Positions 7,572-22,228 of a DNA stretch of 64,000 nucleotides are shown here, piece by piece. The DNA lies in NCBI GenBank assembly GCA_902782445.1, contig CACZNC010000006.1, positions 1-64,000 of the forward strand, written 5' to 3'. The notes beneath the pieces were generated by a model. That model saw only the letters and a list, made by a program, of their open reading frames with translations, searched no databases and was not told the DNA's origin. The stretch's first letter is position 1. The number at the start of each line of letters is the position of its first letter. The stretch is from an uncultured Ruminococcus sp. GTDB lineage: Bacteria; Bacillota; Clostridia; Oscillospirales; CAG-272. Both the position numbers and the translations under genes were made by a program.

Positions 7572-8500
7572 ACGCCGTCGAACTCGATCACGTCAGCTTC
7601 ACCTATTCCCGGAACATGCCCGGTGCCGTCCCCGCCCTCGACGACGTCAGCCTGAGCGTGAAATCGGGCGGCATCACCGGACTGATCGGACACACCGGAA
7701 GCGGCAAATCCACCCTTGTCCAGCTTTTGAACGGCCTGCTCAAACCCGACAGCGGGACGGTCCTTCTGGACGGACACGATATCTGGGCCGAGCCGAAGAA
7801 GATCCGCGAGATCCGCTTCAAGGCCGGGCTCGTCATGCAGTACCCCGAATACCAGCTTTTCGCCGAGACCGTGGCGGAGGATATCGCCTTCGGCCCGAAG
7901 AACATGGGGATCGGCGGGGAGGAACTGGACGCGAGGGTGAAGGAGGCAGCCCGTTTCGCCGGGATCGGGGAGGAGCTCCTCGGAAAATCCCCCTTCGACC
8001 TGTCGGGCGGACAGAAACGCCGGGCCGCGCTGGCCGGAGTGATCGCCATGAACCCGAAGATTCTGATCCTCGACGAACCCGCGGCGGGCCTCGATCCGGC
8101 GGGCAGGCGGGACATCCTCGGCGGCGTCAAGCGGTTCTCCCGGGAGAGCGGCACCACCGTCATCATCGTCAGCCATTCGATGGAGGATATGGCGATGTAC
8201 TGCGACGACGTCATCGTCATGGCCCGCGCGAAGATCCTCATGCACCGTCCCACGGCGGAGGTCTTCTCCGAAGCGGAACAGCTTGCCTCCGTCGGTCTGG
8301 ACGTGCCCCTCGTCACCCGGGTCGCGGCGGCTCTCGGAGAGCTCGGCGTGGATATCGGCCGGGACGTCTACACGGTGGACTACGCCGTCGGCAAGATCCT
8401 CGAGCACATCGGGGCCGCTCCCGTCAATTTTGAAAACGTGAAAGACGCCGCCGGGAAGAACGGGACCGGTGCGGCGGGAAAGGCCGGGGCCGAACATTGA
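7568..8500 (+). CDS. ecfA2: Energy-coupling factor transporter ATPase EcfA2
   Basis: Second ATPase of the ECF module, 310 residues. The start is the ATG overlapping the ecfA1 stop. Walker A GHTGSGKS is at 41-48, the Q-loop MQYPEYQLF near 90-98, signature LSGGQKRR at 145-152, Walker B ILILDEP at 165-171. YPEYQLF is the EcfA2-type Q-loop. It ends in a low-complexity Ala/Gly tail (about 20 residues) that is not needed for the fold. It overlaps ecfT through TTGA. Confidence 0.95.
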   Translation: MNAVELDHVSFTYSRNMPGAVPALDDVSLSVKSGGITGLIGHTGSGKSTLVQLLNGLLKPDSGTVLLDGHDIWAEPKKIREIRFKAGLVMQYPEYQLFAETVAEDIAFGPKNMGIGGEELDARVKEAARFAGIGEELLGKSPFDLSGGQKRRAALAGVIAMNPKILILDEPAAGLDPAGRRDILGGVKRFSRESGTTVIIVSHSMEDMAMYCDDVIVMARAKILMHRPTAEVFSEAEQLASVGLDVPLVTRVAAALGELGVDIGRDVYTVDYAVGKILEHIGAAPVNFENVKDAAGKNGTGAAGKAGAEH

Positions 8501-9324
8501 GATCCGATATCACCTTCGGTCAGTACGTGGAGGGCGACTCCCTCATCCACCGGCTGGACCCCCGCGTCAAGATCCTCATTTCCCTCGTCTTCATCGTGGT
8601 GATCTTCCTCGCCCGGAGCCTGACGGCCTTCGTCCTTCTGACCGCCGCCGCCGTCGTCTTCGTGCTCATGACGAAGATCCCGCCCCGGCTGATCCTCAAG
8701 GCCATGAAGCCGCTCATGTTCATCATCGTGTTCACGGCGGTCATCAACATCTTCTTCATGCCGGGGGACCACCTGATTTTCGAATTCCATTTCATCCGCA
8801 TCTACCGGGAGGGGATCGTCAACGCCTGCCTGATCGTGTTGCGCATCATGCTTTTGATCGTGGCGACCTCGGTGTTCCTCACCTACACCACCACGCCGCT
8901 GGCTCTGACCGACGCCCTCGAACAGCTTCTGAACCCTCTGAAAAAGCTCCGCGTGCCGGTCCACGAATTCTCCATGATGATGACCATCGCCCTGCGGTTC
9001 ATCCCGACCCTTATCGACGAGACCCGCAAGATCATCAACGCCCAGACGGCCCGCGGCGCGGATTTCACCACCGGGAGCCTGATCCAGAGGGGACGCGCGC
9101 TGATCCCGATCCTCATCCCCCTCTTCATCTCGGCGTTCCGGCGGGCGGACGAACTGGCGACGGCGATGGAGTGCCGCTGCTACACCGGCGGAGAGGGCCG
9201 CACGAGAATGAACTCCCTGAAAAGCGAGCCGAAGGACTGGGCCTTCTTCTGCCTGATCCTCGCGCTGGGAGCCGGGGTTGTCCTGCTCAACCGGTTCTTC
9301 CCGCTCCTCAACGTCACGATATGA
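8497..9324 (+). CDS. ecfT: Energy-coupling factor transporter transmembrane protein EcfT
   Basis: EcfT is the membrane scaffold linking the two ATPases to S components. The 275-residue product begins with TTG, which overlaps the ecfA2 stop, so translation is probably coupled. The usual early motif (SLIHRLDPRVKI) and several membrane helices are present, and the two coupling segments with Ala-Arg-Gly are seen at AQTARGAD and ATAMECRCY. The second motif normally reads AxxxRG; here it ends ECRCY, a common EcfT form. Confidence 0.94.
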   Translation: MRSDITFGQYVEGDSLIHRLDPRVKILISLVFIVVIFLARSLTAFVLLTAAAVVFVLMTKIPPRLILKAMKPLMFIIVFTAVINIFFMPGDHLIFEFHFIRIYREGIVNACLIVLRIMLLIVATSVFLTYTTTPLALTDALEQLLNPLKKLRVPVHEFSMMMTIALRFIPTLIDETRKIINAQTARGADFTTGSLIQRGRALIPILIPLFISAFRRADELATAMECRCYTGGEGRTRMNSLKSEPKDWAFFCLILALGAGVVLLNRFFPLLNVTI

Positions 9325-9343
9325 GCGGCGGGAAATCGCAGAT

Positions 9344-10156
9344 ATGAAACTTCTATGCAAGATCATGTTCGACGGATCCGGGTACGCGGGGTATCAGGCG
9401 CAGAACGACGAAGTCTCGCCGAAGCCTTCGATCCAGCGGACCCTGACCGCCGCCTTTTCGGAGGGATTCGGATTCCCCTGCCGCGTGACGGGGTGCAGCC
9501 GGACGGACGCCGGGGTCCACGCCACCGGATTCTGCCTCACCGCCGAGCCCGCCCGGGATCCCGGAGAATCCCCAGGGGAAGACTGGCTCCGCATTCCCGT
9601 GGGACGGGTGCACCGGGCGATGGCGCGGTTCCTGCCCCCGGACATCTCGATATGCGGGGAGGCAGCGGTCCCGGACAGCTTTCATCCCCGTTATTCTGCC
9701 GTCGGGAAGCAGTACCGCTACCGCATGACGGACGCCCCGTGGCGGGATCCCTTTTCGGACCGGACTTCGTGGCATCTTTCCGCGCCGGTCACGGACGGGG
9801 GATTCGAACGGATGGAGCGGGCGGCGTCCCTCATCCCCGGAAAGCGCGATTTCACCTCCTTCATGGCCGCCGGATCGAAGATCGCCGACGCCACCCGGAC
9901 CGTGACCGCCCTGACGGTAGAGCGGCGGGGGCATGAGATCACGGTCACGGCGGAGGCCGACGGATTCCTCTACAACATGGTGCGCATCATCGCGGGGACC
10001 CTCGCCGACTGCGCCCGGGGAACGCTGGATCCCGGATCCCTCCCGGACATCCTCGAAGCGAAGGACCGCTCCCGTGCCGGAAGGACCGCTCCCGCCCGGG
10101 GACTCTTCCTCTCCCGCGTCGACTATCCGTTCCCCATCGACTGGCGGTGCGAGTGA
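9344..10156 (+). CDS. truA: tRNA pseudouridine38-40 synthase TruA
   Basis: TruA isomerises uridines 38-40 in tRNA anticodon arms. The catalytic Asp is D55 in CSRTDAGVHA. Length is 270 residues, normal for the family. TruA often follows ecfT in Firmicutes. The chosen start (MKLLCKIMFDG) lies after a tiny ATG-initiated frame, MSGGKSQI, which begins inside the ecfT stop and ends overlapping the truA start (ATATGA). That mini-frame could pass ribosomes on by coupling. An upstream in-frame start inside ecfT is unlikely. Confidence 0.95.
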   Translation: MKLLCKIMFDGSGYAGYQAQNDEVSPKPSIQRTLTAAFSEGFGFPCRVTGCSRTDAGVHATGFCLTAEPARDPGESPGEDWLRIPVGRVHRAMARFLPPDISICGEAAVPDSFHPRYSAVGKQYRYRMTDAPWRDPFSDRTSWHLSAPVTDGGFERMERAASLIPGKRDFTSFMAAGSKIADATRTVTALTVERRGHEITVTAEADGFLYNMVRIIAGTLADCARGTLDPGSLPDILEAKDRSRAGRTAPARGLFLSRVDYPFPIDWRCE

Positions 10157-10202: not shown

Positions 10203-10372
10203 CGCCGTTCTTTTTCTCCTTCAGCGAGGAGCCGGTTCAACAAGTTGAACGCGAGAACCAAAAAGAGGAACTTTTTTGAAGCAGTGGGTGTTCCGAGGTC
10301 TGCGGACCTCGGGTCAGGACGCTGTCCCGACACCTTGTGACCATTTTGAAAAAAGGTCGATCAAAAACTTTC
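10203..10372 (+). repeat. Hairpin-array repeat, copy B (forward)
   Basis: Stems visible are CTCCT-tcagc-GAGGAG-like, GTTCAACAAGTTGAAC, CCGAGGTCTGCGGACCTCGG, GTCAGGACGCTGTCCCGAC and GACC-attttgaaaaaa-GGTC. Compared with copy C the third stem has swapped A-T to G-C, and the last stem is different but pairs. The GGGGA/TCCCC hairpin of copies A and D is missing. The copy fills the gap between truA and the next gene. Confidence 0.85.
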
Positions 10373-10423
10373 CCGGCGGGTTCGTCAAACTCCCTGCGAC
10401 AACTCCCCGAAAGGACAATTCCC

Positions 10424-11635
10424 ATGCCTGAAGAAACCAAGCGGCGGCTGGCCGTGGCCGGTAAGATCGAGGCGGAAGTCAACCGCTATTACGCCCGGGT
10501 GGCAAAGCGGTACACTGCCGCCGGGGTGGTCTGCATGGCCCTGTTCCTCGTCACGATCTGCGCGATCTTCGTGTTCGGCTCGGACTATATCACCACCGAA
10601 AACCTCTCCTATCTGGCCCGGGATTTCGGGACGGCGGCGGACGAGGGCGGGCGCGATTTCGGCAAGATCGTCTACAACGGATCCTCGAGCACCCGGTTTT
10701 CCTGGTTCCGGGGAGGCGTCGCGGTCACGGGATCCGACTTCTACCGCTATTTCGACAAAAACGGGCTCTCGGTGATCTCCGAATCCCAGAGCTACGCAGA
10801 CCCGGTGCTCGCCCCCTCCGACCGGTACATGCTGGTCTACGATCTCGGGGGGACGGGATGGTCCGTCTACAACCAGCTCGCCCGGATCGTCAGCCGGGAG
10901 ACCGACGAGCCGATCATCGCGGGGGACATCGCCTCCGACGGATCCCTCGTGCTCGTCACCCGTTCGCGGGACACCCGGTTCGTGGTGGAACTCTACAACG
11001 CCGCCTTCAACCGGACGATGCTCAGCTACAAGGACGGCTACGTGCTCTCTGCCGCGATCTCGGAGAAGGGGGATCAGTTCCTCGTCGCCTCCGCGGTCCC
11101 GTCGTCCACTGACTTCGACTGCGAGATCGAGATCTGCCGCCGGGGAGAGGAGACGCCCCTCGCGAAGGATATGCTCTCCCATCAGATGCCCCTCTTGAGC
11201 GCGGCGGCGAACGGCGGTTTCGTGGTGCTCTGCGATTCCGCGGTCTGCTACTACGACGCCTACGGGATCCGGCAGAAAACCGTGTCCCTCACCGGCATGA
11301 CGCTGAAATACGCCGATATCCGCGGAGGTTCGGCGGCGCTCGTGGGACAGGTCAACGCCCTCGGGAGCGAATACCGGGCCCTGGTGCTCGACGCGGCGGG
11401 GGAGGTCCTCTGCGACTCGGTCCTGCGGGAGCGGATCGTCGGGGTGCGGATGGGCCGGAACACGAACGACGCCCTCGCCTATCTGAGGACCGCGGACAGC
11501 GTCGTGCGGATCCTCCCGGGCGGCGGAACGGAGACGTACCGGCCCGAGAACGGCGAGATCCTCGACCTCGTCCCCCTCAACGCCGGAGCCCTCCTCTGCC
11601 AGAAGACCTCGGCCTCCCAGATCTTCGACGACTGA
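10424..11635 (+). CDS. Membrane-anchored protein of unknown function, DUF5711-like
   Basis: The start MPEETKRR follows an AAGGA site; a more upstream ATG lies inside the hairpin-array repeat. The 403-residue protein has a cytoplasmic N-terminus, one membrane helix at about 32-53, and a long extracellular part with repeated short beta-strand blocks (for example GVAVTGSDFYRYFDKNG, SVYDNQ-type turns), like a degenerate beta-propeller. From memory it resembles the clostridial DUF5711 family, whose role is unknown. No catalytic motif is evident. Its nearest coding neighbour is the CvpA-like gene after a repeat island. Confidence 0.75.
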   Translation: MPEETKRRLAVAGKIEAEVNRYYARVAKRYTAAGVVCMALFLVTICAIFVFGSDYITTENLSYLARDFGTAADEGGRDFGKIVYNGSSSTRFSWFRGGVAVTGSDFYRYFDKNGLSVISESQSYADPVLAPSDRYMLVYDLGGTGWSVYNQLARIVSRETDEPIIAGDIASDGSLVLVTRSRDTRFVVELYNAAFNRTMLSYKDGYVLSAAISEKGDQFLVASAVPSSTDFDCEIEICRRGEETPLAKDMLSHQMPLLSAAANGGFVVLCDSAVCYYDAYGIRQKTVSLTGMTLKYADIRGGSAALVGQVNALGSEYRALVLDAAGEVLCDSVLRERIVGVRMGRNTNDALAYLRTADSVVRILPGGGTETYRPENGEILDLVPLNAGALLCQKTSASQIFDD

Positions 11636-12120: not shown

Positions 12121-12852
12121 ATGACGCTTGCCATTGATGCCATTCTGATCTTTACCGCCGTTTTCTGCGTCTGGGCGGGCGCGCGGAAAGGCTTTGTCCG
12201 CTCGGTGATGGGATTCATCTCCACCGTGGTCTCCGCCATTGCGGCTTATGCCTTTACTCCCGCTCTCTCCGCTTGGGTGGAGGAACGCTTCCTCAGAGAG
12301 CGGATCACGGACAGGGTACACGAATTTCTGAGGGCGATTACTCCGCCTTCCGACGGGAACGAATTATTCAACCTCGACAAGTTGATTACGGATTTCCCCG
12401 ACCGTTTCCGCGACACGCTTGCCAACTACCATATCGACGTCTCCGTTGTCAAAGACCTCATGACGGGGATCGACCGGGCGGGTGAGGAATCCGTGCGGAG
12501 CCTGTCCGAGCGGATCGCCGCGCCCACTTCCTCCGCCATCGCCTCCGCCGTGTCCTTCGCCGTGATCTTCCTCGGGGCCTTCCTCGTGATGACGCTCATC
12601 ACCGCTCTTCTGGACCTGATTTTCCGCCTTCCGGTGCTGAACGGGGCGAACATGTTTTTCGGGTTCCTCGTCGGAGTCGCGGAGGCCGCCGTGTTCGTGT
12701 CGGTGCTGGCTCTGGTGCTGTCCGTTCTGGTCCGCGCGCTGGGGGCCTTCGATCCGACCCTCTTCGGCGACGAGGCGGTGAACAACACCATTCTGTGCAG
12801 TTTCCTCGAGAAGCACAACATCTTCACGTTCCTCTCAGCGGTGCTGAAATAA
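12121..12852 (+). CDS. CvpA family membrane protein
   Basis: CvpA-like proteins are small integral membrane proteins linked to colicin V production and cell-envelope functions; the molecular role is unsettled. The 243 residues contain about four membrane segments: 1-20, 25-47 (SVMGFISTVVSAIAAYAF), about 136-165 and 172-200. The N-terminal half (ARKGFVRSVMGF) has the CvpA signature G-x-x-K/R-G-F. GGAGG precedes the ATG. It lies 57 bp before the ClpE-like gene. Confidence 0.8.
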   Translation: MTLAIDAILIFTAVFCVWAGARKGFVRSVMGFISTVVSAIAAYAFTPALSAWVEERFLRERITDRVHEFLRAITPPSDGNELFNLDKLITDFPDRFRDTLANYHIDVSVVKDLMTGIDRAGEESVRSLSERIAAPTSSAIASAVSFAVIFLGAFLVMTLITALLDLIFRLPVLNGANMFFGFLVGVAEAAVFVSVLALVLSVLVRALGAFDPTLFGDEAVNNTILCSFLEKHNIFTFLSAVLK

Positions 12853-12909: not shown

Positions 12910-15186
<2,277 letters not shown>

Positions 15187-15332
15187 CCGCGGCGGAACAG
15201 ATGCCGGAATATCCGGGACTTCCCGGGAACTCCTCTTCCGGCGCTTTTCTCCCCGAAACGGAAAAGGCCCGGGAAAGACGACCGATCTTCATTTTTGAGA
15301 AGACCCAAGTTTGACTGTAATATGAGAACGCT

Positions 15333-18185
15333 ATGATTTCCTCAAACTCCTGGCATCTTCTTCTCGGCGGCGAGGTGCTGAACCTCCTCGGGACCGACAT
15401 GTTCCGGGGTCTGAACGCCGCGGAGGCGGAGAAGAGAAAGCATAAGGTCCGGGGGCGGGTCTGGCACGTGCGGAAGACCTCCGCTTCGGAAGCCGCCGTC
15501 GCCTCCCTTTTCGACCTTCCCACCGTCCTCCTCGCCACCGCCGCCGGGGCAGCCGCCCTTTTCGACAAACGCTTCGAAGCCGGAGCCATCGTCGCCGTGC
15601 TCGTCCTCGGAGCCCTGATCCGGACGGCGGTCTATATCCGCGCGAACCGCATCCTCGAGGACATGGCCCGGGCGCGCATCCCCGTCAGTTCCGTGATCCG
15701 GGACGGCAGGATCCTCTTGCTCCCCGCCTCCGAGATCGTCCCGGGGGACATCATTTTCCTCGAAGCCGGGGACACCGTTCCCTGCGACGGACGGGTCATC
15801 ACCGGCGACGATTCCGTCGTCAGCGAGCGGGGGATCACCGGCAACGACCGCCCCGTCCACAAATTCAACACCGTCATCTCCACCGAGGCGGAGAGCGGCG
15901 AGATCCCCTGCGAATTCCGCTCCAACATGCTTTTCGCCGGATCCCTCGTCCTCTCCGGTTCCGTCCGCATCGCCGCCACAGCCTGCGGGGAGGACACCCT
16001 CGTCTCCATGAAGCAGGGCGGGATCACCGTGGACGCCCAGAACGACTTTCCGATGGTCGCCCGCCTGAAAAAGCAGAGCCGCACGGTCTCCCTCGTCATG
16101 CTGGCGGCAGTCCTCGCGCTCTCCGCCCTTTCCCTCTTCACCGGGGACGGCATGTCCCTGCCCGACGTCTTCCTCGGCGCGATGGCAATGGCCGTGGCGT
16201 CCATGAGCGAGTTCTTCTCCACCATCGCCGCCATCATCCTCGCCGTCGCCGTGAGGAGAGCCAGACAGGGCGTCGGACCGGCGGAGGAGGGCGAGGAGGA
16301 GAAGGAGGGGAGCCGGACCCGCGTCCTTTTCCGCGATCCCTCCCGCATCGAGGACGTGGCAGCCCCCGACGCGCTGGTCTTCTGCGGATCGAACTTCTTC
16401 AAGTCCGGGCGGGCGGAGATCCTCGCCTACCGGGTCCGGGGAGCCTATACCGGAGCCGACGAAAAGGGGGAGGACCCCTCGGAACTGATCGGGCTCGCCC
16501 TCGCCGCCTCGACCGTCGCGGGAGGCAGGAACGGACTTGCCCCCGGGGATTCCCCCTCGAAAAAACTCCCCCGCCTCGCCGCCCGCCGCGCATCCCTCGC
16601 CGCACAGGCCGCGGACGCCTATCTGAGACGCACGGGACGCCGCCCCGACACCGCCTATGCCGTCGGCGACCACCGCGATTCCTCCGACCGGCTGGCCGCG
16701 GGCATGGAGATCTCCCTCTGCGAACGGGACGGGAATGTCTGGGCCGTCGGATGCGGATCCGTCGAGGACGTCCTCCGCTGCTGCTCCTCCGTCGAGCGCA
16801 GGGAGGGGACCGCAGATCTCGACCCCCGGGAAGCCGGACGCATCCGGGAGGAGACCGCGGAGCTCGAAGCTTCGGGCGCCCGCGTGCTGGCCGTGGCAAA
16901 GCGGATCTCCCCCTATCCCCATCTGAACCGTCTCGCCGTCCTCACCCAGGCCATGACCTTCGTCGGCTTCTTCGCCGTGTCGGTGGAGCCGGAGAGGGGA
17001 GCGCGGGAGAACGCCGAGATCCTCAAAAAGAGCGGCATCCGCCCGATCCTCTTCACCGAGAACCCCCGGGAGGATCTGAGCTACGGCGTCCGGCTGGGGC
17101 TGTTCGATCCCGACGCCCCCGTCATTCCCGCCTCCGAGTGGGACGCCGTCCGGGCAAGGGAGATCCTCGGCGATCCCGATCCGACGAAGGGGGCCGTCGT
17201 CGCCTTCGACACCATCGGGGACGCCTATCTCGGAAGCGCCTTCGCCCGGGCCATGATCTCCCTGGTGGGAGGCGGAAGGCAGACGGACGGAGAAGACGGG
17301 GAGGAAGAGCCCCCGGTGATCGCCGCGGTCGGCATGGAGGCATGGGACGCCGGCGCGCTCGGAAGGGCAGACTTCGGATTCGCCGTCGCAAGATCCCGTT
17401 TCCACGCCGTGCCGGAATCCATCGCCCGGGGTGCCGCCGTCGTCATCCAGCCCGCGGAAGGGGGAGCGGAAACGGACGCCGGATTCGGAGCGGGAGGGCT
17501 CGAGGGCGTGACGGAGGCCGTCCGGTCGGCAAGATGCGCCGTCACCAACGTGGCCCGCGCCCGGTTCTACCTCACCGCCGCCCAGACCGCCCGCCTTGCC
17601 GTCATGCTCGCCTCCGTCCTCGGATTCCTGCCCCTGCTTTCGGCGGTGCTGATCCTCGTATGGGGCCTGCTCTTCGACTTCGGCGCGGTGCTTGTCCGGG
17701 CCTTCGGTCAGGACGACGAAAAACCCGCCCTCAAAATCGGCAGGGAAGAGCGTGCGAAGGGCGACCGGTCCACCGTCACCGCCGTGGGGATGGGACTGGT
17801 CTGGGGCGTGTCCCTGGCCGCGGTTTCCGCCCTTCTTCTGCGCTCCCTCGACGCCGGGACCCTGATCCCCTCCTTCGCCGGAACGGATGCCGCGAACCGC
17901 GCGTTCCTCTCCGGGGCCGTTCTGCTCTCCGGCGCCGTGTTCTCCCTCGAATGCGGAGGGCGGAAGAGCCTCTTCACCCGCCGCGGATTCAACCCTGCGG
18001 AGATCCTCTTCGTCGCCGCCTCCCTCGTCCTCGCGGGATGGATCCTCTTCTCCTCCGGCGGAGCGGCTGTCTTCGGCGGATCCCCCTGCGGACCTGCCGG
18101 ATTCCTCGCCTTCCTCCCCGCCCTCGCCGTCCTCGCCGCATTGGAGGCGCTCAAGATGATCGAGGGAAGAATGAGGAGTGATTAG
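15333..18185 (+). CDS. P-type ATPase homologue lacking catalytic motifs (pseudo-ATPase)
   Basis: The 950-residue protein has the domain order of P2-type cation ATPases: cation-ATPase N-terminus, paired helices (about 62-102), actuator domain (PGDIIFLEAGDTVPCDGRV, 137-155), helices 3-4, a large cytoplasmic part and C-terminal helices. The key motifs are gone. The phosphorylation sequence DKTGTLT is CGSNFFKSG (351-359), the actuator TGES is TGND (169-172), and the hinge GDGVND is GMEAWD (667-672). The helix-4 PEGL region reads SMSEFFS. The frame is intact and codon usage normal, so it appears maintained rather than decayed. Start has a weak site. It follows clpE by 146 bp. A transport ATPase function is unlikely. 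Confidence 0.85.
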   Translation: MISSNSWHLLLGGEVLNLLGTDMFRGLNAAEAEKRKHKVRGRVWHVRKTSASEAAVASLFDLPTVLLATAAGAAALFDKRFEAGAIVAVLVLGALIRTAVYIRANRILEDMARARIPVSSVIRDGRILLLPASEIVPGDIIFLEAGDTVPCDGRVITGDDSVVSERGITGNDRPVHKFNTVISTEAESGEIPCEFRSNMLFAGSLVLSGSVRIAATACGEDTLVSMKQGGITVDAQNDFPMVARLKKQSRTVSLVMLAAVLALSALSLFTGDGMSLPDVFLGAMAMAVASMSEFFSTIAAIILAVAVRRARQGVGPAEEGEEEKEGSRTRVLFRDPSRIEDVAAPDALVFCGSNFFKSGRAEILAYRVRGAYTGADEKGEDPSELIGLALAASTVAGGRNGLAPGDSPSKKLPRLAARRASLAAQAADAYLRRTGRRPDTAYAVGDHRDSSDRLAAGMEISLCERDGNVWAVGCGSVEDVLRCCSSVERREGTADLDPREAGRIREETAELEASGARVLAVAKRISPYPHLNRLAVLTQAMTFVGFFAVSVEPERGARENAEILKKSGIRPILFTENPREDLSYGVRLGLFDPDAPVIPASEWDAVRAREILGDPDPTKGAVVAFDTIGDAYLGSAFARAMISLVGGGRQTDGEDGEEEPPVIAAVGMEAWDAGALGRADFGFAVARSRFHAVPESIARGAAVVIQPAEGGAETDAGFGAGGLEGVTEAVRSARCAVTNVARARFYLTAAQTARLAVMLASVLGFLPLLSAVLILVWGLLFDFGAVLVRAFGQDDEKPALKIGREERAKGDRSTVTAVGMGLVWGVSLAAVSALLLRSLDAGTLIPSFAGTDAANRAFLSGAVLLSGAVFSLECGGRKSLFTRRGFNPAEILFVAASLVLAGWILFSSGGAAVFGGSPCGPAGFLAFLPALAVLAALEALKMIEGRMRSD

Positions 18186-18607: not shown

Positions 18608-19453
18608 ATGGCTGAACCCAGCAACTGCACCCACGACTGCTCGACGTGCCAGGCCAACTGCTCCTCCCGCGCGCCGCAGCATGAGGCTCCTCACGCCGGA
18701 TCCAACATCCGCCACGTGATCGGCGTCGTTTCCGGCAAGGGCGGCGTGGGCAAATCCCTCGTCTCCTCCATGCTGGCCGTCACCCTGAAGCGGCGCGATC
18801 TCTCCGTCGCCCTCATGGACGCGGACGTGACCGGCCCCTCCATCCCGAAAGCCTTCGGCGCGAAGGGCGATATCCTCGCCGCCGCCGACGGCCTGATCCC
18901 CCTCGAAACCAAGACCGGCATCAAAACCATCTCCGTGAACCTGCTGCTGGAGGACGAGACCCGTCCCGTCGTCTGGCGCGGACCCGTGATCGCGGGCACC
19001 GTCAAGCAGTTCTGGACCGACGTGATCTGGGGCGACGTGGACTATATGATCGTCGACTGCCCGCCCGGGACCGGCGACGTGCCGCTGACCGTTTTCCAGT
19101 CCGTTCCCCTCGACGGCATCGTGATCGTCACCACCCCCCAGGACCTGGTCTCCATGATCGTGAAAAAGGCCGTCAACATGGCCGGACTCATGAACATCCC
19201 GGTGATCGGCCTGATCGAGAACATGTCCTACGTGAAATGTCCCTGCTGCGGCGAAGAGATCAAAGTCTTCGGCGAATCGAAGGCCGAGGAGGTCGCGGCG
19301 GAATACGGGATCCCGGTCCTCGGGAAAATGCCCGTCGATCCGAAGCTCTCCGCCCTCGTGGACCGCGGCGTGATCGAGCTGATGGAAAACGACTACCTCG
19401 AAAAAGCAGCCGACGCCGTCGAAGCGTTCTGTGAAGCGGAAAAGGCAGAATAA
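18608..19453 (+). CDS. mrp: Mrp/NBP35 family Fe-S cluster carrier ATPase
   Basis: A deviant-Walker ATPase that binds a transferable [4Fe-4S] cluster. The 281 residues carry an N-terminal C7-x3-C11-x2-C14-x3-C18 motif as in eukaryotic NBP35, the P-loop SGKGGVGKS (44-52), and the dimer-interface C213-x2-C216 in KCPCCGEE. Its place directly before the hydrogenase genes suggests it supplies Fe-S clusters to HydABC or the sensory protein; that is inference. GAAAGGA precedes the start. Confidence 0.92.
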   Translation: MAEPSNCTHDCSTCQANCSSRAPQHEAPHAGSNIRHVIGVVSGKGGVGKSLVSSMLAVTLKRRDLSVALMDADVTGPSIPKAFGAKGDILAAADGLIPLETKTGIKTISVNLLLEDETRPVVWRGPVIAGTVKQFWTDVIWGDVDYMIVDCPPGTGDVPLTVFQSVPLDGIVIVTTPQDLVSMIVKKAVNMAGLMNIPVIGLIENMSYVKCPCCGEEIKVFGESKAEEVAAEYGIPVLGKMPVDPKLSALVDRGVIELMENDYLEKAADAVEAFCEAEKAE

Positions 19454-19499
19454 CACCCCCAATCTCATTAACAAACTCCCAAGGAGGAAAGAAATACCC

Positions 19500-19994
19500 A
19501 TGAAAAAAGCGATGACTTCCGTCCCTTTCAAAGGGACACCCGAGCAGCTCGCGGCGCTTGACCTCGTCATCGAGGAAAACAAGACCCAGCCCGGCGCGAC
19601 CCTCGCCATTCTCCAGAAGGCGCAGGACATCTACGGCTATCTGCCCGAAGAAGTGCAGCGTCACATCGCCCTCGCCCTCGACATCCCCTTCTCCGAAGTC
19701 TACGGCATCGCCACCTTCTACGCTCAGTTCCAGCTGAATCCGAAGGGCGAGCATCCCGTGAACGTATGTCTCGGGACCGCCTGCTACGTCAAGGGCTCCG
19801 GCAAGATCATGGAGAAGCTCGAGGAAATGCTCGGCATCCCCGCCGGCGGCATCACCCCGGATCTGAACTTCTCCCTCGACGCCACCCGCTGCATCGGCGC
19901 CTGCGGTCTCGCTCCCGTCATGACGGTCGGCGACGACGTCTACGGCAGACTCGAACCCGGTATGCTCAAGGGCATCCTCGCGAAGTATCAGTAA
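19500..19994 (+). CDS. hydC: NuoE-like [2Fe-2S] subunit of NAD-linked hydrogenase (HydC)
   Basis: The 164-residue thioredoxin-like ferredoxin is the 24-kDa type subunit that passes electrons between HydB and HydA in trimeric bifurcating hydrogenases. Cluster ligands are C90, C95, C131 and C135 (CLGTAC and CIGAC). A strong AAGGAGGAAA lies before the ATG. It heads the hydrogenase region but is separated from hydB by seven reading frames and a repeat. The assignment as HydC rests on family and context. Confidence 0.93.
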   Translation: MKKAMTSVPFKGTPEQLAALDLVIEENKTQPGATLAILQKAQDIYGYLPEEVQRHIALALDIPFSEVYGIATFYAQFQLNPKGEHPVNVCLGTACYVKGSGKIMEKLEEMLGIPAGGITPDLNFSLDATRCIGACGLAPVMTVGDDVYGRLEPGMLKGILAKYQ

Positions 19995-20057
19995 GAGGAT
20001 CCCCGCGGCCCCGAACCGTTCAGACGACACTGTGAAAGGCAGTTTGACGGAAACGAT

Positions 20058-20411
20058 ATGAAAATCGCTAAAATTCAGGAGCTTCTCGGAGCGGACCTGC
20101 TCTGCGGCGAGGAATACCTCGACCACGACGTCTGGGCCGCCTGCTGTTCCGACATGATGAGCGACGTGCTCGCCTTCGTGAAGGATCAGGGCGTTCTCCT
20201 CACCGGGCTGCTCAATTCTCAGGTCATACGCACGGCGAACATGATGGACATGGTGTGCATCGTGATCGTGCGGAACAAAGTTCCCACCGAGGAAATGGTC
20301 GAGCTGGCCGAAGAACACGGGCTCGTGCTGATGCGGTCCCCTCTTCGCGCCTATGAGGCAAGCGGCGTTCTGTATGCCGCCGGACTCGGCCGGGAGGTCG
20401 CCGATGCCTGA
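20058..20411 (+). CDS. DRTGG-domain protein, hydrogenase-linked
   Basis: A 117-residue single-domain protein of the DRTGG type, a fold also found in regulatory parts of phosphotransacetylase and CBS-pyrophosphatases. Ligand is unknown. It begins MKIAKIQELLGADLLCGEEY. It lies after hydC and overlaps the following ATPase by 8 bp, so the two are probably made together. A related DRTGG protein is at 22225. Such genes are found in hydrogenase operons of other Clostridia, to my recollection. Confidence 0.75.
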   Translation: MKIAKIQELLGADLLCGEEYLDHDVWAACCSDMMSDVLAFVKDQGVLLTGLLNSQVIRTANMMDMVCIVIVRNKVPTEEMVELAEEHGLVLMRSPLRAYEASGVLYAAGLGREVADA

Positions 20412-20826
20412 GCCGATCCGATTCCATTTCGACGTTGACGGCGAAAACTTCACCTCCGCCGGAGAGGCGTCCGTGGCGGTGAAGAAGAAGCTCAGACAGC
20501 TCGGTTATTCCCCCGATATCATCCGCAAGGTCTCCATCGCCATGTACGAGGGAGAGATCAACATGGTGATCCACGCGAACGGCGGGAAGGCGGACGTGGA
20601 GGTGAACGACGACGAGATCGTCATCATCCTCGCGGACACCGGCCCCGGCATCCCGAACGTGGAGCTCGCCATGCAGGAAGGCTATTCCACCGCGCGCGAC
20701 AACATCCGGGCCCTCGGGTTCGGCGCGGGCATGGGACTGCCGAACATGAAGAAATACACCGACGAGATGAAGATCGACACCGAAGTGGGCGTGGGCACCA
20801 CGATCACCATGAAGGTCTATCTCTGA
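20404..20826 (+). CDS. GHKL ATP-binding protein, anti-sigma/RsbW-like
   Basis: A stand-alone GHKL ATPase domain of 140 residues. The N-box is MYEGEINMVIHA, G1 is DTGPGI, and G2 is GFGAGMGLPNM, the pattern of RsbW/SpoIIAB serine kinases. No phosphoacceptor or transmembrane part is present. Overlap with the DRTGG gene upstream and position before the sensory hydrogenase-like gene suggest a signalling role. No STAS or PP2C partner is in the window. Confidence 0.85.
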   Translation: MPEPIRFHFDVDGENFTSAGEASVAVKKKLRQLGYSPDIIRKVSIAMYEGEINMVIHANGGKADVEVNDDEIVIILADTGPGIPNVELAMQEGYSTARDNIRALGFGAGMGLPNMKKYTDEMKIDTEVGVGTTITMKVYL

Positions 20827-20860
20827 TTCTCCGTCGCGCGCCCTGCTCAGCGAGGTGATT

Positions 20861-22228
20861 ATGGCAGATTATAAACATTCGGTCTCGCTGGACGTCAGCA
20901 AATGCAAAGGCTGCACAACCTGTCTCCGGCGCTGCCCCACGGAGGCCATCCGCATCCGCGACGGTCACGCCGTCATCAGTTCCGATAAGTGCATCGACTG
21001 CGGCGAGTGCATCAAAATGTGCTCCTACAAGGCGAAGAAGGCGAACCACGATTCCCTTTCCTGCCTCGAAAAGTACAAATACACCGTCGCCCTCCCCGCG
21101 CCCTCCCTCTACGGTCAGTTCGACCACATGGACAACATCGGCTACATCATCCGGGGACTCAAGGATCTCGGCTTTGACGCGGTCTTTGAGGTGGCGTGCG
21201 CGGCGGAGCTCGTATCCGCCTATACCAGACTCTACATCAAGCGGAGCGACGTGAAAAAGCCCGTCATCAGCTCCGCCTGCCCGACGATCTCGCGGATGAT
21301 CTCGATGAACTACCCGTTTCTGATCGAGAACATCCTTCCGATCCTCCCGCCCGTGGATATCGCAGCCTATCTCGCAAGGGAACAGGCGAAGACCGAACAT
21401 CCCGAGCTGAGCGAGGACGAGATCGGCATCGTGTTCATCTCCCCCTGTCCCGCCAAGGTCAGCTACGTGAAGAACGACTTTGCGAAGGAACGGAACTACA
21501 TCACCGACGTGGTGTCCGTCCGCGACGTCTACTTCGCCCTGCTCGACGTGATGAAGAAGCGGGAGGACGAACCCCTCGAGGCCACCGAAAGCGGCATGAT
21601 CGGCATCGGCTGGGCTTCGACCGGAGGGGAATCCACCGCCATCTTCAACGAGCGCTATCTCGCGGCGGACGGGATCGAAAACTGCATCCGCGTCCTCGAC
21701 CAGATCGACAACGAGGACATCACCTCCCTTGACTTCGTGGAGCTCAACGCCTGCAACGGGGGATGCGTCGGCGGGGCTATGACCGTGGCCAACCCCTACA
21801 TCGCGCAGGCCCGGCTCCAGGCTTTGAAGCGGTATCTGCCCGTCTCCCCGAACCGGCCCGCCTCTGAGTGGATCCCGGATGAGTTCTTCAACGAGAATTC
21901 GCTCGAGTATTCCCCGGCGGCCCTCCTCTCCGAGGACAGAAAGGTCGCAAGGCAGATGATGAGCGAGATCGAGTCCATCAAGGCAAGTCTGCCGGGGATC
22001 GACTGCGGATCCTGCGGCGCGCCGACCTGCATGGCCTTCGCAGAAGACATCGTGCGGGGACAGGCCACGGCGGACGAGTGCACCGTCATCATGAAAATGC
22101 TGTTCCACCAGTATCTCGACGAACATAAGAAGAAATCCATCCTTGACAAGCTGACCGCGAAAAACCCGGGGAAGGACGCGGCCGGAAGCGGGGATGCCGA
22201 ACCCAAACCGGAAGGAGTCGCGGAATGA
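20861..22228 (+). CDS. Sensory [FeFe]-hydrogenase-like iron-sulfur protein (HsfB-like)
   Basis: The 455 residues contain two N-terminal [4Fe-4S] ferredoxin motifs (C15/18/21/25 and C44/47/50/54), an [FeFe]-hydrogenase large-subunit domain, and a C-terminal cluster motif C382-x2-C385-x4-C390...C407. The four H-cluster cysteines appear retained: C140 (SSACP), C196 (SPCPAK), C298 and C302 (NACNGGC). The proton-relay Cys of L1 is Ala, which is typical of sensory groups. This layout matches HsfB-type proteins thought to sense H2 or redox state. ATG 20861 is preferred to the in-frame GTG six bases earlier. Confidence 0.87.
   Translation: MADYKHSVSLDVSKCKGCTTCLRRCPTEAIRIRDGHAVISSDKCIDCGECIKMCSYKAKKANHDSLSCLEKYKYTVALPAPSLYGQFDHMDNIGYIIRGLKDLGFDAVFEVACAAELVSAYTRLYIKRSDVKKPVISSACPTISRMISMNYPFLIENILPILPPVDIAAYLAREQAKTEHPELSEDEIGIVFISPCPAKVSYVKNDFAKERNYITDVVSVRDVYFALLDVMKKREDEPLEATESGMIGIGWASTGGESTAIFNERYLAADGIENCIRVLDQIDNEDITSLDFVELNACNGGCVGGAMTVANPYIAQARLQALKRYLPVSPNRPASEWIPDEFFNENSLEYSPAALLSEDRKVARQMMSEIESIKASLPGIDCGSCGAPTCMAFAEDIVRGQATADECTVIMKMLFHQYLDEHKKKSILDKLTAKNPGKDAAGSGDAEPKPEGVAE

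Follow-up and report, generated by a model that had tools for sequence, protein, structure and literature searches.

The window, by which we mean the whole 64,000-nt stretch of DNA analysed, carries a gene block with the order (methyltransferase)-ecfA-ecfA-ecfT-truA-DUF5711-cvpA-clpC-pseudoATPase, the last gene being the subject of this study. All features located below lie on the plus strand. The conserved neighbours are ecfT (CbiQ family, 8497..9324), truA (tRNA pseudouridine synthase, 9278..10156, start codon uncertain), the gene of a DUF5711 protein (10337..11635) and cvpA, which encodes a membrane protein of the Colicin_V family (12121..12852). Directly upstream of the pseudo-ATPase gene lies a gene for a ClpC-like AAA+ unfoldase (12910..15186). 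Its product has two Walker A motifs, a putative ClpP-binding xGF loop and an N-terminal CxxC...CxxC zinc finger, putatively of the McsA type; a Clp_N domain was not detected. ClpC proteins with this double-CxxC finger are conserved across the home family. The pseudo-P-type ATPase gene itself (15333..18185, 950 aa), identified by its ORF, a Pfam match and structure prediction, is uninterrupted from ATG to stop over 950 codons, and its ATG aligns with the starts of the orthologues.

Of 54 loci, 53 have clpC as the gene directly upstream; the remaining one is cut by the contig end. Among the loci examined a pseudo gene without upstream clpC was never seen. The opposite case occurs: in several genera truA-DUF5711-(cvpA)-clpC is present but no pseudo gene was detected (L206, L210, L211, L213, L215, L233). 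Because clpC occurs without the pseudo gene and not the reverse, the pseudo protein appears to depend on ClpC and not vice versa, as far as can be inferred from gene order. A strict dependence on DUF5711 was rejected, since DUF5711 is wider (157 of 196 genomes) and is present in some lineages that lack the pseudo gene. The link to ClpC is itself an inference limited to gene order, with no data on expression, localisation or interaction, and the adjacency may partly reflect inertia, because the whole ecfA-truA-cvpA-clpC block is syntenic.

The gap between clpC and the pseudo gene is typically below 100 nt; in the window it is 147 nt. It holds a weak terminator-like stem (15223-15241) and a promoter-like TTGAGA-17-TAATAT (15295-15323) that ends about 10 nt before the ATG, so co-transcription with clpC is unsure here and the pseudo gene may possibly have its own promoter. 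Downstream (18608-22228), a gene for an Mrp-type P-loop NTPase (Pfam NUBPL/ParA) is followed by what appear, by inspection, to be electron-transfer/hydrogenase-type genes, an order common to genus-mates and some other genera, though not all.

Catalytic motifs, ion site and nucleotide-binding domain

By homology and fold, the protein belongs to the P-type ATPase superfamily. The Pfam model E1-E2_ATPase matched residues 119-311 (111 bits, 6e-32); in the same search neither a phosphatase nor an N-domain family matched, and the cation-ATPase C-terminal family stayed far under its threshold. The nearest NCBIfam models were those of Mg2+/Ca2+ pumps, with scores no higher than about 100 bits where the cut-offs are 600-800, and TIGR01494 also fell short (45.8 versus 62.3). 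An AF2 model built from 34 homologues/orthologues (pLDDT 84.8, pTM 0.83) was compatible with a complete P-type fold, with predicted A, P and N domains and the 10-helix architecture. Many P2 pumps matched this model in Foldseek, the best global fit among the listed matches being human SPCA1 in its CaE1 state (8iwp, TM 0.76/0.80), and the closest solved relative by sequence was Listeria LMCA1 (phmmer 1.2e-26).

P-type ATPases are defined by a phosphorylated aspartate. Motifs were compared in an alignment that contained 42 pseudo members and 28 canonical clostridial P2A pumps. Residues D351, K352, T353, E183 and D703 (SERCA numbers) were invariant in all 28 canonical pumps and replaced in the pseudo members, which have Cys (C351) or Pro/Ser/Gly at the position of the phosphorylated Asp, mostly Asn/Val for E183 and mostly Arg/Ser for D703. 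In the window, CGSNF replaces DKTGT (residues 351-355, 16383..16397) with C351 at the position of the phosphorylated Asp, TGND (T169-G-N-D172, 15837..15848) replaces the actuator TGES, and GMEAWD (G667-MEAW-D672, 17331..17348) replaces GDGVND. The SERCA IPEG site in M4 reads MSEF (residues 291-294, 16203..16214), in which S292-E293-F294 aligns with the PEG of canonical pumps; Pro and Gly are thus lost and Glu is kept. None of 94 distinct pseudo homologues has DKTG, TGES or GDGxND in place. Asp occurs at position 351 in a single sequence (L101), within DREG and not DKTG; Glu stands at the TGES Glu position in 10 of the 94, without a complete TGES in any of them, and GDG.ND was found in 0/94. 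Consequently none of the criteria for a functional P-type ATPase (the DKTGT Asp, TGES, GDGxND) is met, the absence of hydrolysis and transport being inferred from sequence only.

Some residues of the ancestral machinery persist. The window protein retains the M4 Glu (SERCA E309), the M6 Asp (D800, here D782) and the equivalent of the hinge D707 (D672). Across the pseudo members, Glu309 is present in 38 of 42 (Pro of the M4 motif in 1/42) and elsewhere varies to Q/N/S/G/D, the D707 equivalent is acidic in 36/42, and 27/42 have K/R at the K684 equivalent. An RG-like motif in the N domain and the Cys that is C484 in the window are also retained by many members. The earlier note had described a full-length P-type ATPase homologue with DKTGT, TGES and GDGVND all replaced in an uninterrupted frame, and this held. 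Its statement that the M4 PEGL region was changed held in part, since Pro and Gly are lost but Glu (E309) is kept; the retained M4 Glu, M6 Asp and D707 equivalent were absent from it.

The ion site has been rewritten. The P2A Ca2+-ATPase ligand set (M4 PEGL, M5 Asn/Glu, M6 Asn/Thr/Asp) is not met, only the M4 Glu and M6 Asp being kept. Glu771 of M5 is Arg/Lys in 42/42 (Arg754 in the window, 17592..17594) and Asp800 of M6 is kept in 42/42 (Asp782, 17676..17678), while Asn796 of M6 is Gly in 41/42 and Thr799 is mostly hydrophobic. The two charges covary: of 90 sequences aligned at both positions, 84 have the basic M5 and acidic M6 residues, 6 have neither and none is discordant (Fisher 1.6e-9, uncorrected for phylogeny). 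The pair was lost jointly in at least three lineages, the f20 genus (g134, where it has become Val/Asn), g71 and g56, and in the proteins of g80, which lack the N domain, no pair was aligned. An M5 Arg and M6 Asp pair is a feature of P3A H+-ATPases, and on this point the pseudo members qualify (R/K and D in all 42 of the tree set); the P3A model TIGR01647 (54.5 bits, cut-off 615.5) and the catalytic motifs are not met. In the plant pump AHA2, Arg655 and Asp684 are stated to correspond to SERCA Glu771 and Asp800 (PMC5387105). Our comparison rests on this published equivalence because no bacterial H+-ATPase was available for direct alignment, none scoring above the cut-off when 61 genomes of the phylum were searched. 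The resemblance to AHA2 is limited to two residues and is probably convergent. That an Arg-Asp salt bridge replaces the bound cation is an inference, without a measured Arg-Asp distance.

The N (nucleotide-binding) domain, which spans approximately residues 369-540 in the window (16437..16952), is missing from the orthologues of two genera: from all four inspected genomes of g80 (L216, L218, L219, L220; 689-702 aa) and from one genome of g74 (L214, 759 aa). By HMM placement only, what these forms have lost is the stretch of the model that follows the phosphorylation strand and precedes the second P-domain half. Their A domain, the remainder of the P domain and the membrane helices are present, and their genes too lie directly after clpC. 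No role that depends on ATP binding can therefore be general in the family. Conservation is inverted with respect to pumps. In canonical pumps the P1 region is the most conserved (mean pairwise identity 0.74) and falls to 0.22 in the pseudo members, which conserve most strongly the A domain (0.36) and M5-M6 (0.32).

Distribution, descent and selection

The motifs were absent from every full-match genus-mate. When 196 genomes of the home family were surveyed with a profile of the part after M4, the matches fell into two groups separated at about 175 bits. None of the members inspected above this value has DKTGT; the four full-length members inspected below it carry all motifs. Pseudo members above the cut occur in about 93-95 of the 196 genomes and, by hand count, in about 39 genera. 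In about 12 further genera this locus holds a more divergent member that had escaped the profile, so that roughly 50 of the approximately 94 sampled genera of the home family carry the pseudo-ATPase; these genus counts are estimates from sampled genomes. In a class-wide search, the best matches outside were all canonical. A second family, f20, has pseudo members in one genus (g134; L110, L119, L121, L130, L131). The named relatives come from Oscillospiraceae, 'Ruminococcus' and Clostridia MAGs, many of them from ruminant or other gut sources, and every named sequence record is a MAG.

In the tree, the 42 pseudo members of the home family (f1) form one clade (SH-aLRT 100), which the f20 members join with equal support (SH-aLRT 100); the stem is long, at 1.17 changes per site. 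Long branches weaken this tree. Synteny gives independent support: the f20 genus has the identical block order, which is therefore independent evidence of common descent, and a long-branch artefact as the only cause of the grouping was rejected on account of the eight-gene synteny common to both families. A canonical pump beside clpC, as a living intermediate, was not found in about 50 canonical loci, of which flanks of only about 1.5 kb were available.

Most members have open frames of about 900-950 aa. In close pairs, dN/dS (NG86) was 0.10-0.19 for the pseudo-ATPase, similar to the values for CvpA and DUF5711 encoded at these loci, and 0.05-0.09 for ClpC, below the pseudo-ATPase value; pairs with dS well above 1 were saturated and not relied on. 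In both families the fold, the frame, the locus and purifying selection have persisted, showing that the protein is used; being maintained, it must have a function. Recent decay to a pseudogene is ruled out by the dN/dS values and the breadth of occurrence.

Two genomes deserve separate mention. Genome G035 has two full-length pseudo-ATPase paralogues (L178 and L179), and in G107 one copy (L225) measures 721 aa, its family-model match ending before the last membrane helices, through a frameshift or a real truncation.

Proposed role and alternatives

We propose that the gene encodes a true pseudo-P-type ATPase, derived from P2A (SERCA/LMCA1-like) pumps and unable to run the E1-E2 cycle, that acts as a partner of ClpC. 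As a whole, this proposal has the balance of probability slightly on its side, and its parts are of unequal strength. Very likely the protein does not pump and is under selection, though biochemical data are lacking and the loss of ATP hydrolysis and transport is inferred. That it is not a conventional P-type pump is nearly certain from sequence. The membrane-partner role with ClpC, taken alone, was inferred from gene order without interaction data, and remains tentative, with the odds somewhat against it. In fold and ancestry the protein is a P-type ATPase, but by sequence it fails as an ATPase, and its inferred mode of action, in the absence of biochemistry, is unlike that of the rest of the superfamily.

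The sequences show that the aspartate for phosphorylation is missing, that the nucleotide pocket is eroded and that the N domain has disappeared in two genera. According to the proposed mechanism, the Arg-Asp pair would lock the membrane domain through a salt bridge that substitutes for the bound cation. The result would be a static 10-helix platform with the actuator domain and M5-M6 as putative working surfaces. Such a pseudo-ATPase may anchor the upstream-encoded zinc-finger ClpC, serve as its adaptor or regulate it, an inference held with modest confidence. The putative partner ClpC lacks the adaptor-binding Clp_N and keeps the ClpP-type xGF loop, and the pseudo-ATPase, along with CvpA and the DUF5711 protein, would deliver ClpC(P) to membrane clients. 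We favour a platform or adaptor of ClpC(P) because the N domain is deletable, the ion site is neutralised, the A domain and M5-M6 are conserved and the dependence on ClpC runs one way.

The earlier note had suggested a repurposed pseudo-ATPase, perhaps a sensor, scaffold or channel. Repurposing is supported by the retained fold and purifying selection. Neither observation that it had named as refuting was made: no orthologue with intact motifs was found and dN/dS is about 0.10-0.19 instead of elevated, and AF2 and Foldseek rule out a different fold, the prediction giving a complete P-type one. Among its three suggestions the evidence favours the scaffold or partner, because the Arg-Asp pair would neutralise the transport site, two genera have deleted the N domain and the gene is bound up with clpC; a sensor is not excluded and a channel has no positive support.

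Compared with known systems, the pseudo-ATPase shares with LMCA1 (lmo0841), SERCA and SPCA the domain order, the 10-helix membrane domain and the fold, and with LMCA1 and other P2A pumps also the A-domain sequence, the M4 Glu and the M6 Asp. Unlike these pumps it has no DKTGT, TGES or GDGxND, has lost the M4 Pro, has Arg for the M5 Glu and Gly for the M6 Asn, has an eroded or deleted N domain and lacks any evidence of transport. It is like AHA2 in the M5 Arg and M6 Asp at the equivalents of SERCA Glu771 and Asp800 (PMC5387105), and differs from it in having no catalytic motifs and in scoring far under the TIGR01647 cut-off. For a role independent of pumping, C. elegans CATP-1 is the closest functional precedent (title cited in PMC11631496); this is, however, a eukaryotic Na,K-type alpha subunit, called a Na+/K+ pump (PMC11631496), with no known relation to the pseudo-ATPases. 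The neighbouring ClpC shares the xGF loop and a putative McsA-type finger with ClpC systems that use McsA/McsB adaptors, but unlike the ClpC of those systems it has no Clp_N that we could find. To our knowledge, no ClpC partner is a P-type ATPase. A full-text literature search, which left most subscription papers outside its scope, found no family-wide inactive or pseudo P-type ATPase branch, and a 2023 superfamily review mentions no pseudoenzyme branch under the terms searched (PMC10654040). The novelty of the family is therefore probable, not proven.

A scaffold kept across two bacterial families without phosphorylation, ion ligands or even the ATP domain reveals which pump parts remain of use once pumping is lost. 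The proposed role would further mean that a Clp protease of gut and rumen bacteria has a membrane partner that has gone unrecognised, and the genes are at risk of automatic annotation as cation pumps. A bolder reading, which we regard as no more than possible, is that a SERCA machine became a non-catalytic platform, or a pH- or PMF-sensing regulator, of a membrane-directed ClpC protease, having exchanged its Ca2+ site for a proton-pump-like Arg-Asp pair and, in some lineages, dispensed with its nucleotide-binding domain.

The main rival to the platform or adaptor reading is a sensor of ions, pH or proton-motive force, in which the M4 Glu, M5 Arg and M6 Asp would still titrate or bind a ligand, their state being signalled by the cytosolic domains to ClpC or some other partner. 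It is possible: the M4 Glu and M6 Asp are retained under selection, and the M5 Arg/M6 Asp arrangement matches Arg655/Asp684 of AHA2 (PMC5387105). Against it, the gene is kept where the pair was lost jointly, in three or more lineages (f20 genus, g71, g56), and in g80, whose N-less proteins have no aligned pair, and the M4 Glu varies to Q/N/S/G/D. Ranked after it, and unlikely, is a pseudo-subunit that regulates an active P-type ATPase by pairing with it, in the manner of pseudokinases. P-type ATPases can oligomerise, as in MgtA dimers (8uy7, among the Foldseek matches), and an active pump gene is the divergent neighbour in one genome (L138), but only in this one of about ten inspected contexts. 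The neighbour (L138:6529-9102, plus strand) is a canonical Ca2+-type P-ATPase, 64% identical to one of the family's canonical pumps.

A passive ion channel or leak pathway through the old transport site is very unlikely. The transmembrane domain is retained and palytoxin can turn the Na,K-ATPase into a channel (9vj0, among the Foldseek matches), but the N768, T799 and Glu771 ligands are replaced, an Arg has been put into the site and the charge pair is neutralised. We consider still less probable a cryptic, unconventional ATP-driven transporter that uses other residues. The K684 equivalent (K/R, 27/42), the acidic D707 equivalent (36/42), the RG-like motif and C484 would speak for it; the missing phosphorylated Asp, the loss of TGES and D703 and the two genera without an N domain speak against it. 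A decaying pseudogene or MAG artefact, to which the origin of all named members in MAGs and a few split or truncated copies might point, is all but excluded by about 50 genera, open frames, dN/dS of 0.10-0.19 and synteny in two families.
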